This document shows, piece after piece, positions 48,730 through 55,543 of a DNA stretch of 64,000 bases; within the stretch, counting starts at the first letter, position 1; every line of letters starts with the position of its first letter. The notes under the pieces are model-generated. The model had not been told where the DNA came from. It searched no databases and saw only the letters and a list, made by a program, of their open reading frames with translations. The position numbers and the translations under genes were made by a program. Origin of the DNA: Phycisphaerae bacterium (lineage in GTDB: Bacteria; Planctomycetota; Phycisphaerae; Sedimentisphaerales; Anaerobacaceae); the NCBI GenBank assembly GCA_028714255.1, contig JAQTMR010000001.1, positions 310,001 through 374,000 on the forward strand, given 5' to 3'.

Positions 48730-48753
48730 TCCGACGGTACTCCAAAAATATTT

Positions 48754-48776
48754 AACCCCCTGCACCGCAGGGGGTT
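48754..48776. repeat. Perfect 10-bp GC-rich hairpin after the anti-sigma gene
   Basis: AACCCCCTGC (48754-48763) and GCAGGGGGTT (48767-48776) with loop ACC. On the minus strand an A/T-rich TAAATATTTTTGG follows; on the plus strand no T tract. Either a hairpin repeat or a weak terminator. Confidence 0.6.
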
Positions 48777-48793
48777 ACTCTGATTGTGCTCTT

Positions 48794-48895
48794 GTCATTC
48801 CCGCGGAAGCGGGAATCCAGTCATTGTCATTGCGAGCCCCTGTGTTTTCTGTCGAAGACAGAAACGGCGACGTGGCAATCTACTTACTTCTTCCC
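48794..48895 (+). repeat. GTCATTCC-type repeat followed by GTCATTGCGAG-type repeat
   Basis: First unit 48794-48820 (GTCATTCCCGCG...GCGGGAATCCAG). The second starts GTCATTGCGAGC near 48826 and ends GGCGACGTGGCAATCT near 48888, with an internal hairpin TTCTGTC/GACAGAA. Both are familiar dispersed repeat types of many bacteria. Confidence 0.75.
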
Positions 48896-48939
48896 TCTTT
48901 CCACCTGTTTTATTAATACTTACCACGCCGTTTTTCTGC

Positions 48940-48968
48940 TTTCACAAAAAGCTATTTTGATGTATAAT
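48940..48968 (+). promoter_or_regulatory. Promoter giving a probable leaderless transcript
   Basis: TTTCAC (48940-48945), 17-base spacer, perfect TATAAT (48963-48968). The ATG of the following gene is at 48976, seven bases after the -10 box, so transcription would begin at or next to the start codon. Confidence 0.55.
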
Positions 48969-48975
48969 AAATCTT

Positions 48976-49164
48976 ATGATTAGGAAAATAGTCGCCAAAC
49001 ATCGTATGGATAATTTCTCCGAAGTCAGGCAGAACCTTCAATACTGGCTAACCAAAACGCCGCAGGAGCGCATCGCTGCCGTCGATTCCTTAAGAGCACA
49101 GGTATATGGAAATACAGAAAGACTTCAAAGAACTGCTCGGGTTATTCAACGCCCACAAAGTTGA
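48976..49164 (+). CDS. Small protein partnered with a nucleotidyltransferase
   Basis: 62 residues. The stretch YWLTKTPQERIAAVDSLRAQVYGNTERLQRTARVIQ matches the short proteins usually found directly in front of this kind of nucleotidyltransferase gene. Probably an antitoxin or partner subunit (inference). It appears leaderless. Its last 59 bases overlap the next gene in another frame. Surrounded by dispersed repeats on both sides. Confidence 0.7.
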   Translation: MIRKIVAKHRMDNFSEVRQNLQYWLTKTPQERIAAVDSLRAQVYGNTERLQRTARVIQRPQS

Positions 49165-49552
49165 ATACATGGTTGTCGGCGGGTATGCGCTGGCTTTTCA
49201 CGGCGCCCCGCGATTTACCGGCGATATCGATTTGCTGGTAAAACCCGACAGCAAAAACGCCCGCCGTATTCTTGCCGCTTTGAACGATTTTGGTTTTGGT
49301 TCGTTAAACCTTAGCGAATCGGATTTCACCCGTCAGGATAGCATCGTTCAGCTTGGTGTTCCGCCAGTACGTGTCGATATTATAACATCGATAAGTGGAG
49401 TTGACTGGGATAAAGCACACGCCGGTAAGGTCGCCGGCGATTATGACGGGGTAGCAACCTCTTTTCTCGGCAAAAAGGAATTTATCTTAAACAAAAAGGC
49501 AACTGGCCGAAAAAAAGACCTCGCAGACCTCGAAGCACTCGATGAAAACTAA
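49106..49552 (+). CDS. Nucleotidyltransferase-fold protein (MNT/AbiEii-like)
   Basis: 148 residues. The minimal nucleotidyltransferase motif is seen as VGGYALAFHGAPRFTGDIDLLV, with GG then D-x-D, and a later Asp in VRVDIITS. Relatives belong to the MNT/AbiEii/DUF6036 group, several of which act as toxins or antitoxins by adding nucleotides or AMP to RNA or proteins. The ATG at 49106 lies inside the preceding small gene. It has no HEPN partner next to it. Likely an accessory two-gene module, consistent with the repeats around it. Confidence 0.8.
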   Translation: MEIQKDFKELLGLFNAHKVEYMVVGGYALAFHGAPRFTGDIDLLVKPDSKNARRILAALNDFGFGSLNLSESDFTRQDSIVQLGVPPVRVDIITSISGVDWDKAHAGKVAGDYDGVATSFLGKKEFILNKKATGRKKDLADLEALDEN

Positions 49553-49880
49553 TTAAGTTTGTCATTCCCGCGAAACTTATCCACGATTTATTCTTTGTCA
49601 TTCCGCACTTGCCCGCCCCAGCACTCTGTTGGCCGGGGATGCGGAATCCAGAAATGTTTAGCCCCGTCATCTTGCTTGTCGCGGCGTAGCTTTAGCGAAG
49701 ACGGATGACGGGGTTCGGTTAGCCCTGCCATCACTATGGCAGGGTTTGTCATTCCCGCGAACGCGGGAATCCAGTCATGTAGGGTGGGGCTTGCCCCACC
49801 AATTTCTCTCAATCCATCACCCCGCCAACGCTTTTGATTGAAAAATTGTCCCAGATACCTTTAATTTCACCCAGATCGTT
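49553..49880. repeat. Cluster of five or more dispersed repeats
   Basis: About 330 bases of repeats: GTCATTCC types at 49561-49583, 49597-49651 and 49748-49774; a stem CCCCGTCATC (49662-49671) with GATGACGGGG (49704-49713) whose loop holds a GGCGTAGCTTTAGCGAAG unit; CCCTGCCAT/ATGGCAGGG (49723-49744); and a GGTGGGGCTTGCCCCACC palindrome (49783-49800). No gene. Confidence 0.75.
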
Positions 49881-51968
49881 TTAGAGTTCTTCTGGTTTGT
49901 CTTTAATTAATTCCTGCATATCACATATCACATATCCATTGACCAACTTGCCATTCTTGTCACAAAGAGGGTCTATGATTACATTTAAATTATTCTTAAA
50001 CGCCTGTGTAACGATTTCATCAAATTCAACATCGCTCGGAATAATGCGCATCTCATAATTCTTTAAGTCAGCTCCAGCTTGTTTAGCATTTTCGAGAAAC
50101 TTATCCATCTCCATTGGGCGAGAAATCATAACAATGGTATTACCTATCACAATTGTTTCTTCAGTTTCGGTGTCGACAAGATAACAAAGCGGCGTATAAA
50201 ATTCTCCATCGTCAGGATAGAGTTTGGCGATATGCTCTGAATACTTAACAACCTCTGCATTAAGGCATTCCAAGCACTCCTCTTCTGGTTCTTTTAAGGC
50301 TAATAAGGTTGAATACCTGCCATGCATCCAATTTATTGACGTATAGCAAGCAGGATCTTTTTTGTCCCGAGCCTTCTTTAAGTGTGTATTAAATTCCTTA
50401 GCACGTTGTTCTGCTATATTCTTTGGATATCTATCGAGTTTGCCTCTGGAATCTATAAAACGAAACAAGCCTCCTTTGAGATCAACACGAATACAATACT
50501 TGTAATTTCGATACGATGAATTCTCGGGGTTCCAGGCGACTTGGCAAATAGGTTGAGGTTTTTTTCCGCGTAGTAGCGTTTGCCCTTTTACTATAAGTTT
50601 TGCCCACTGGCAAAGGTCAAAATTCTTAAGAAAATCTTTCTTTTTGAATATGGGGCACTCAAGTTGTCCCAATACTCGATCAATATTTCTGCGGCATTCA
50701 TCATGCACGCACCCAATCTGGTGTGCAGTTTCTTCATCATCAAGTTCTACTATCATAACAAACCCTTGCGAAATGGCTTTCCCACAATGTAAACATATTA
50801 GCATGTCCTTGCGTTCTTCAAGCATTTTTTGACACAACTCTGAATGTGCCTTTGCAAAAGGCGCATTATCTGCTGTCTCCGCCCCATTAGCCCCAACAAT
50901 ACATACTTTCTTATCTTTTACTAATTCAAGGTGATCTTCTATAAATCTCTCGACCCCTGAATAAGTAGCTGCGCGAAAATAAACTTTAGAGGTCGTGGTA
51001 GAATCCTTTTGCCACATTACTCTATCTTTCGAAAAACGAAGTCTCTTCGCACCTATGTCGGCAAACCGGAAGAACTCCGCAATAACCATTGAGTCGCCAA
51101 AAATGTCAGGAGACTCCATTAATAAAACTTCACGCCCAGAAGAAAGCACCCCATGTTCCTTTGCTAAAAGCTTCAATATTTCATCAGAAGTTGTCGTAGA
51201 TTTTCCCAAAGAGTTCGAAATCCTATACCTACCAGCAATTGCATTTAATCCTGAAATATCTATTACATGTCGCTTTGCACCGTTGCTCAAGCAAGTTTTT
51301 ATAAACATCGACCATATAAAATGAGGTTCTAACATAACTGCTGGTGTGAGCAACGCAATGGCAGCAACCTCATGCGGCATACCAGATTCCACATCTATAA
51401 CACAAACATAAGACCGCTGTGCAAAAACATGAAACTCCTCTTTTGACATTTCACATCCGTACTCATCTTTAAACGTATCAGTCACAATATCATGAAACTT
51501 ATTGTAATAATCTTTCTCTGCTTCCGAAAAAGTTCTAATATCTGGCCCATCGGAACTCATACGATAAGCATCAAGTATTTTCTTCAAAGTCACCTTGATT
51601 GGTCCACTAGATTCCGAAGTAGTTGCTATAGCATAAACAGCATCTCCATAAGGTTCATTGTGGCTCTGTTTAATGAACTGTTTGATTACGCTGTTGAAGT
51701 CAGATCCTTTTTTTGTTGATAGGCTAAGCTTTCTTTTTGCTTGAATATAGATAGTTTTGTCATTATTGCATTTTATTACTATATCATCGATAGCCTCTGC
51801 TGCTTCTATTGCCAATGACACCGGTATTGCGTCAACATCAATGCCAAATAGAATAGACACCGAATTCTCTGTAAAGACACAAACGAGTGCTAGAGCAGCA
51901 ATACGTTCTTGAAAGTCGATCCCAGCATTTACCGCTGCACCGCCAGCCTTTTTACAATCTTTAATCAA
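49881..51968 (-). CDS. Cap4/DUF4297-like nuclease protein with zinc-knuckle segment, putative defence protein
   Basis: 695 residues. The N-terminus resembles the dsDNA nuclease domain of Cap4/DUF4297 proteins: GIDFQERIAALALV, then AIDDIVIKCNNDKTIYIQAK, giving a D-x(n)-Q-x-K site near residues 59-77, and AVYAIATTSE. A helical middle follows, then a possible zinc site near 389-425 (CLHCGKAIS ... CVHDECRR). The remaining 270 residues are not recognised (WNPENSSYRNYKYCIRVD, WMHGRYSTLLAL). Its A/T-rich codons stand out from the neighbouring chaperone genes. The start seems to be TTG at 51968 with AGGA upstream, as the next in-frame ATG is far inside. It stands alone, so it would have to sense and act by itself. 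A defence role is inference. Confidence 0.6.
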   Translation of the reverse strand: MIKDCKKAGGAAVNAGIDFQERIAALALVCVFTENSVSILFGIDVDAIPVSLAIEAAEAIDDIVIKCNNDKTIYIQAKRKLSLSTKKGSDFNSVIKQFIKQSHNEPYGDAVYAIATTSESSGPIKVTLKKILDAYRMSSDGPDIRTFSEAEKDYYNKFHDIVTDTFKDEYGCEMSKEEFHVFAQRSYVCVIDVESGMPHEVAAIALLTPAVMLEPHFIWSMFIKTCLSNGAKRHVIDISGLNAIAGRYRISNSLGKSTTTSDEILKLLAKEHGVLSSGREVLLMESPDIFGDSMVIAEFFRFADIGAKRLRFSKDRVMWQKDSTTTSKVYFRAATYSGVERFIEDHLELVKDKKVCIVGANGAETADNAPFAKAHSELCQKMLEERKDMLICLHCGKAISQGFVMIVELDDEETAHQIGCVHDECRRNIDRVLGQLECPIFKKKDFLKNFDLCQWAKLIVKGQTLLRGKKPQPICQVAWNPENSSYRNYKYCIRVDLKGGLFRFIDSRGKLDRYPKNIAEQRAKEFNTHLKKARDKKDPACYTSINWMHGRYSTLLALKEPEEECLECLNAEVVKYSEHIAKLYPDDGEFYTPLCYLVDTETEETIVIGNTIVMISRPMEMDKFLENAKQAGADLKNYEMRIIPSDVEFDEIVTQAFKNNLNVIIDPLCDKNGKLVNGYVICDMQELIKDKPEEL

Positions 51969-52120
51969 GGCTTATCCTGTCAAAAATTAATCTGTACTAC
52001 AATCATTCATACGCCTATTTTTATGCACCTTTTTTTGAAATAATGTTCCTATATTATTCTGGCGCCTTCAAGGCGGTATGACCTTACCCTATTTTAACCT
52101 CAAAAAACTCGAAGAATCTC

Positions 52121-54294: not shown

Positions 54295-54660
54295 TCACTC
54301 ACTTTTATGTAATATCGAACCGAAAATCTTCATTAGTTCGGTCGCTTCCTGTATCAGTTCATCTCGCTCACACTCAGGGTTAGGGTCGCCGTTTAAATCC
54401 ACCAGTCTGAGCCAGTATCCGCTTTCTTTTGATTCTTTGCGACATATCTTTATGCGCATTACAAAGTCCTTCTTGCTCAATGCCTCATTGGCTTCTATGT
54501 AGTTCGCCCCAACCGAACCGGAAGCATTAACCAATTGCCTTGAATCTTCGATGTTTGTTATAGTCTTCGGCAGTGTCTTAACAAACTCTCTCACCCTCTG
54601 AGCAAACCGAAATGTTCGCTCTTCGAGGTCATATTGCTTTGAGCCTTGCTTTTCGGCCAT
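54295..54660 (-). CDS. Four-helix bundle protein (S23/IVP-like)
   Basis: 121 residues. Belongs to the four-helix-bundle family first seen in 23S rRNA intervening sequences: LEERTFRFAQRVREFVKTLP, RQLVNASGSVGANYIEANEA and FVMRIKICRKESKESGYWLR are the family landmarks. Function unknown; often next to repeats and selfish DNA. It lies 10 bases after the PD-(D/E)XK-like gene, so they are likely cotranscribed, and both are inserted between groEL and dnaJ. Confidence 0.9.
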   Translation of the reverse strand: MAEKQGSKQYDLEERTFRFAQRVREFVKTLPKTITNIEDSRQLVNASGSVGANYIEANEALSKKDFVMRIKICRKESKESGYWLRLVDLNGDPNPECERDELIQEATELMKIFGSILHKSE

Positions 54661-54670
54661 TGGAATTTCT

Positions 54671-55543
54671 CTATTCCTTATTCTTTAGCTCCTCTAATTC
54701 TTCCAACTTGTTTCCGACAAAAACCTTTTCTACCTCTCCACCTTCTTTTACCCAACGCCAACGTTCATCAAATGGGCCAACAAACAAACCCTCAGGAAGT
54801 GGCTTTCGTGCAAAAGGATTTTCAATCACAACGACCCTTGGCACGCTATTTACGGAATATTTCTTTTGGAGATCCTCTCTATTCTGCCATGCTTCTGTTG
54901 CTGTGAACTTTCTGCCCTGCCTTCTTTCTTCCTCTCTAAAAGCCCTTTCTATCTCGACATTATCAAGAAACTCCTCCAAAACAACAATGGCACTTATAGT
55001 CGTGTTTTGGGGCTGTTTCCTTTTGGCATCAATCATTTTGCCACCGCTAAGAAATACAGTTCTTTCGGTTCCTTCAACTGCTTTACCTTCAGCAACATTA
55101 ATGTCCATTGAAATACCCAAGTTCCCCAACATTGCACCCAAGACAGTTTGAGGATCAAGTCTGGCTTGTCTGTCATCGATATTGAACACTACAAGTGAGC
55201 ACGAGTAGTCCTTAAATTGCTTACATTGTTTTCTTGCCTCGTTTATTTCATCTCGCAGGCCTGTGTATGGATCTATCCAAGCAGGCCGCTTAGTGGGCTC
55301 GTTACCCTTTTTTCTCAGTTCCTTGACTTCAAAAAAGCACTTCTGGCCATTGTAGTCTAAAGAGTAGTCCAGCTTTCTGGATTTTCCGGCTACTGGTAGT
55401 TCATAAATCCATTTGCCTCGAAATCTATTTGAATTCAAGTATTGCTCAAAAATCTTTTCCGATTTATTTTTGTGTTCTCGTTTTAACACGTTCAACGAAT
55501 TCAAAATTTTCACAATACAAGCCAGTATTGTTTTGAATTTCAT
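54671..55543 (-). CDS. PD-(D/E)XK-like putative nuclease
   Basis: 290 residues. The stretch KLDYSLDYNGQKCFFEVKEL fits a D-x(n)-E-x-K nuclease site (about residues 58-77), and WIDPYTGLRDEINEARKQCKQF is a helix like those after the site in restriction-type nucleases. The rest (NTTISAIVVLEEFLDNVEI, VVVIENPFARKPLPEGLFVGPF) recurs in hypothetical proteins I cannot name. Starts at ATG 55543. Lower GC than groEL and dnaJ. It sits with a four-helix-bundle gene inside the chaperone run between inverted repeats, so it is likely an acquired accessory gene. Activity unproven. Confidence 0.6.
   Translation of the reverse strand: MKFKTILACIVKILNSLNVLKREHKNKSEKIFEQYLNSNRFRGKWIYELPVAGKSRKLDYSLDYNGQKCFFEVKELRKKGNEPTKRPAWIDPYTGLRDEINEARKQCKQFKDYSCSLVVFNIDDRQARLDPQTVLGAMLGNLGISMDINVAEGKAVEGTERTVFLSGGKMIDAKRKQPQNTTISAIVVLEEFLDNVEIERAFREEERRQGRKFTATEAWQNREDLQKKYSVNSVPRVVVIENPFARKPLPEGLFVGPFDERWRWVKEGGEVEKVFVGNKLEELEELKNKE

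Follow-up and report, generated by a model that had tools for sequence, protein, structure and literature searches.

The 695-residue gene and its surroundings

In the window, that is, the whole stretch of 64,000 nucleotides analyzed here, positions 49881 to 51968 (minus strand) hold a gene for a 695-residue protein with a predicted N-terminal nuclease domain of the Cap4/LmuA type and a C-terminal module of unnamed family. Its limits were drawn from the open reading frame (ORF), its translation, and a full-length Agrobacterium homolog. The start codon is TTG, with a Shine-Dalgarno-like AGGA about 8 nt upstream, and the gene is present as a single copy in its own genome. A tblastn search recovered the full-length relative (L002) on plasmid pAt of Agrobacterium tumefaciens, with 26% identity and 97% coverage (E = 4e-55). 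Since a full-length relative is found at this level, a chance ORF is ruled out, and the reading frame described in the first-pass annotation proved to be a real gene at that position on the minus strand.

The gene lies in a chaperone region, with FmdB-like, GrpE, DnaJ, GroEL, and GroES genes as neighbors, as had been noted earlier, and its base composition was indeed found to be foreign to that of most of them. Its GC content is 38.9% and its GC3 is 0.335, compared with 44 to 53% and 0.48 to 0.59, respectively, in most neighbor genes; lower GC3 values were obtained for GroES (0.42) and for a gene of a separate insert at 54671 (0.40). Synteny with a genome of the same family (G005), in which the anti-sigma and FmdB-like genes are about 100 bp apart, delimits an insert of 3.39 kb (48730 to 52120) between these two genes in the window, and this insert holds the 695-residue gene along with an AbiEii-like nucleotidyltransferase gene. 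In a genome of the same genus (G001), other genes come after FmdB, namely, two small genes (L091:2593-3985) with no match in Pfam, NCBIfam, or PADLOC, the first of which looks, from its sequence, like a SLATT-like membrane protein with two helices.

The AbiEii/DUF6036-like nucleotidyltransferase gene of the insert (49106 to 49552, plus strand) is preceded by a short ORF (MIRKIVAKHRMDNFSEVRQNLQYWL...), and the two (48970 to 49552) possibly form a toxin-antitoxin-like pair. Near-identical 33-bp palindromes (TTGTCATTCCCGCG..CGCGGGAATCCAGTCAT), REP-like in character, occupy intergenic positions around this gene (48792 to 48824 and 49746 to 49778). A second insert (54295 to 55543) separates dnaJ from groEL, which are adjacent in the same-genus genome G001, and carries genes for a 23S-rRNA-intervening-sequence-type protein and a low-GC 290-residue protein without family.

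Among the neighboring ORFs of the window, no cyclase/CD-NTase, STAND or SMC ATPase, or CBASS partner was seen, in agreement with the earlier description of a stand-alone gene without cyclase or ATPase. The window copy thus described sits beside housekeeping genes and outside any dense defense island, its sole suspicious neighbor being the AbiEii-like nucleotidyltransferase. The neighborhoods of homologs were also checked and are not always of the housekeeping kind, the Agrobacterium copy being located in a defense island. There, the gene lies 210 bp upstream of hamA/hamB (Hachiman) on the same strand (HamB, 1517 bits), and BovA (618 bits) and an ApeA_NTD1 protein are encoded further on in the locus.

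The predicted N-terminal nuclease domain

PADLOC matches, sequence alignment, and hhalign point to a PD-(D/E)xK nuclease domain of the Cap4/LmuA/PDC-M54A type at residues 1 to 235 (51264 to 51968, minus strand), with a boundary at about residue 235 to 240 of the 695-residue protein. Residues 8 to 239 match the front of the PADLOC candidate family PDC-M54A (E = 1e-28) and residues 8 to 166 match LmuA (E = 2.2e-5). The PDC-M54A match stops at profile position 251 of 1657, the protein itself being 695 residues long. The Agrobacterium protein independently matches both PDC-M54A and LmuA with PADLOC. The same nuclease domain heads a large Streptomyces "ATP-binding protein" (L003), itself a full-length match to PDC-M54A, and fronts two other proteins (L004 and L005) in genomes of the window's phylum.

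Alignment of five nuclease-domain sequences (those of the window, Agrobacterium, Streptomyces, and two further homologs) predicts an active site composed of E55...D61-D62...Q76-x-K78 (51735 to 51806, minus strand), all of which are invariant in five of five sequences; a GxxFQ motif is nearly invariant in the same set. The E..DD..QxK order matches that in six proteins found by the Pfam Cap4_nuclease model (PF14130), and hhalign of the nuclease-domain family against these proteins gave P = 0.0085 over the motif region in one comparison. At the curated cutoff of PF14130, the 695-residue protein and its aligned nuclease-domain homologs all remained below threshold, Pfam and NCBIfam scans of the N-terminal domain returned no match, and a PDB profile search with this domain gave chance-level matches only. 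An AlphaFold model of the full-length protein, built from a three-sequence alignment, had a pLDDT of 38.6, which is too low for fold calls. The PADLOC matches, the invariant motif, and the hhalign comparison support the Cap4/DUF4297-type N terminus proposed in the first-pass annotation, and the domain is likely a Cap4-type nuclease with predicted activity.

Cap4, a CBASS protein combining Cap4_nuclease/DUF4297 with SAVED, resembles the 695-residue protein in its N-terminal G-x-x-[FY]-Q, E..DD, and QxK motifs and in its plan of an effector followed by a C-terminal sensor. Unlike Cap4, the 695-residue protein has no detectable SAVED domain or cyclase, and a module of about 425 residues with a CxxC-HxxC motif is found instead. 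The proteins of PDC-M54A (about 1600 residues, annotated as ATP-binding, such as the Streptomyces one) carry the same N-terminal domain, whereas the 695-residue protein lacks their remainder and has the zinc module in its place. As for Lamassu, the likeness to LmuA is one of nuclease domains, but the C terminus is different and no LmuB SMC-like gene lies among the neighboring ORFs of the window.

The C-terminal module and its fusion partners

The C-terminal module extends from about residue 270 to residue 695 (49884 to 51161, minus strand) and is common, by blastp, to proteins with a caspase-like head. Members were collected by scanning 84,980 species genomes for the CLHCG... motif, together with genome and plasmid searches. 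Four further members were found, giving a family of five, one of which is broken. The Agrobacterium protein has the nuclease head and the module, while a sequence from Brucella rhizosphaerae (L069), 55% identical to it, is truncated on both sides beside IS/Tn-type genes. In the other two, from Mucilaginibacter (L019) and from a genome of the same class of Bacteroidota (L081), the nuclease is replaced and the module lies behind a caspase-like protease. By blastp, residues 270 to 689 share 33% identity with L081 (1e-68), residues 241 to 691 share 28% with L019 (2e-44), and residues 19 to 693 share 27% with L002; between nuclease-headed and caspase-headed proteins, similarity begins near residue 270 and continues to the end.

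The caspase heads of L019 and L081 match the PADLOC caspase profile (3.5e-12 and 2.5e-13, respectively) and the NCBIfam EACC1-associated caspase model (7.1e-17 and 1.9e-18, both below the model's cutoff), and that of L019 also matches metacaspase-4 structures (1e-5). The YFAGHG and DSC(F/Y)SG motifs are invariant in both proteins, leaving the caspase His and Cys intact. These heads resemble those of EACC1-type conflict-system caspases, but the C-terminal part is the module of the 695-residue protein, unlike in EACC1 or Canu caspase effectors. CanA of Canu differs from the two proteins in having an Ig-like fold and partner genes (PMC12799240). The module is coupled to a nuclease in some proteins and to a caspase in others, which is direct evidence that it is a separate, portable unit whose killing domains can be exchanged, a property that a sensor or switch would be expected to have. 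With five members found, the effector exchange reflects at least one event.

The Mucilaginibacter gene is near a tyrosine integrase and mobilization-like genes (functions partly read by eye). Directly after it, on the same strand, is a nuclease-like ORF with a weak PD-T7-5 match (L019:4742-5920), a possible caspase substrate. A sce7726-family gene (PADLOC "cll"; L081:6799-7596) lies about 730 bp from the other caspase-headed member and may encode a partner or substrate.

Within the module, a predicted zinc site, C392-x2-C395...H422-x2-C425 (CLHCG...GxVHxxC; 50694 to 50795, minus strand), is invariant in five of five members. The zinc knuckle of the first-pass annotation therefore stands as to its CxxC (392 and 395) and falls as to its CxxxC, which is not conserved, the conserved second pair being HxxC (422 and 425). 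Residues invariant in the four complete modules include R332-x-A334-T335, G338, R341, C392-L-H-C395-G, E408, G419, V421-H422, C425, D430-R431, G434, N449-F450, W455, G462-Q463, W479-N480, R513, and D646-x-E648, among others. No meaningful match to the module was obtained with Pfam, PHROGs, or PDB profiles (chance-level only for PDB), and in full-length members the regions matched by NCBIfam and PADLOC end at the effector domains, with none within the module; the earlier statement that this part has no family holds for Pfam, NCBIfam, PADLOC, and PHROGs. A model of residues 322 to 450 (pLDDT 57) had a weak LIM/ZZ-finger likeness (best Z, 4.0; rmsd, 2.1 to 3.0 over 43 to 47 residues), and Foldseek returned no significant E value for it. 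Such a likeness is too slight to name the fold of the zinc region. The secondary structure had prompted the guess that the last 120 residues might be SseB-like in fold; this was rejected, as hhalign against E. coli SseB scored at the level of shuffled sequences.

The nuclease- or caspase-module family is very rare. Within the Brucella order, 1 genome out of 347 had the module, and within the Bacteroidota class the figure was 2 out of 345; both figures include the genome from which the search started. The full-length gene was absent from the 98 relatives searched and from all other genomes of the phylum sample. No homolog of the 695-residue protein was found in several scans of viral contigs or in phage records, and L084 held no module homolog. 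Twelve motif matches in viral contigs were discarded as short or unrelated ORFs, apart from one with faint HNH-like similarity (L015).

A candidate one-gene defense protein

We infer activity, zinc binding, sensing, assembly, and defense for the 695-residue protein, which is probably a single-gene, horizontally acquired abortive-infection protein. The conservation of the motif and of the zinc ligands, the effector exchange, the defense island of one relative, the foreign composition, and the sporadic distribution support a role in defense. The C-terminal module, with its structural CxxC-HxxC zinc finger, would recognize a sign of infection and change its assembly, thereby bringing together or unlocking the N-terminal Cap4-type nuclease. 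The unlocked nuclease would then cut double-stranded DNA (dsDNA) indiscriminately and stop the infected cell, through growth arrest or death, and the same switch would drive the caspase-like protease in relatives. By analogy, a switch that detects infection and releases the nuclease or caspase is the most likely role of the module. There is precedent in DUF4297-HerA and Avs3, whose Cap4-type nucleases become active on assembly and go on to degrade dsDNA (PMC11291478); the 695-residue protein has neither a HerA partner nor a STAND NTPase. More tentatively, the module could be a new infection-sensing domain, a receptor that contains zinc, has no relation to SAVED, CARF, STAND, or EAD modules, and directly recognizes a conserved component of phages; it would be combined with different death effectors, nuclease or caspase, in single-gene defense proteins.

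A nuclease joined to a zinc-finger module is also a common layout of DNA-targeting enzymes, and no partner is evident for the window gene. The module might bind particular (e.g., modified) DNA for the nuclease to cut, as a restriction-like enzyme would, without cell suicide. The zinc region is faintly similar to that same phage HNH-like sequence, L015 (29% over 58 residues; E = 0.03), but the would-be HNH catalytic His, after E408, is missing. In addition, two genomes join this module to a caspase-like protease, for which DNA targeting would have no evident use, and this speaks against a simple restriction enzyme; we regard this explanation as unlikely.

The exchange of effectors would also fit a CBASS-like protein, given that Cap4 is a nuclease-SAVED fusion and that SAVED modules are likewise found with proteases of the caspase/CHAT type. 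The module would in that case be a very divergent SAVED-type receptor for the cyclic nucleotide of a distant or unlinked cyclase, and the low-confidence full-length model does alternate strands and helices. However, neither Pfam nor PADLOC matched the protein to SAVED or Cap4, the surroundings of the window, Agrobacterium, L019, and L081 genes contained no annotated or recognized cyclase, and the neighboring nucleotidyltransferase is of the AbiEii/DUF6036 type, which leaves this explanation improbable. It seems very improbable that the nuclease serves a partner system, such as Hachiman, as an accessory rather than acting alone: in Agrobacterium, hamA does follow the gene closely in the same orientation, and nuclease or protease add-ons to Hachiman are documented (PMC12799240), but no Hachiman gene was recognized in the vicinity of the window, L019, or L081 genes.

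The defense reading of the 695-residue protein makes it likely an undescribed single-gene defense protein that follows the known effector-plus-sensor plan. The caspase-headed relatives and the Agrobacterium defense island lend independent support to the one-gene effector with its own sensor put forward in the first-pass annotation. A search by term of open-licence papers in PMC found none on the architecture of a nuclease with a zinc module, and "undescribed" here refers to the library versions searched and to these papers rather than to all literature. In bacterial immunity, killing domains are well catalogued, more so than those that sense infection. Occurring with a nuclease in some proteins and with a caspase in others, and missing from the libraries searched, the module is a compact new sensor candidate that can be tested directly, and its one-gene format could be transferred to a laboratory strain for immediate challenge.
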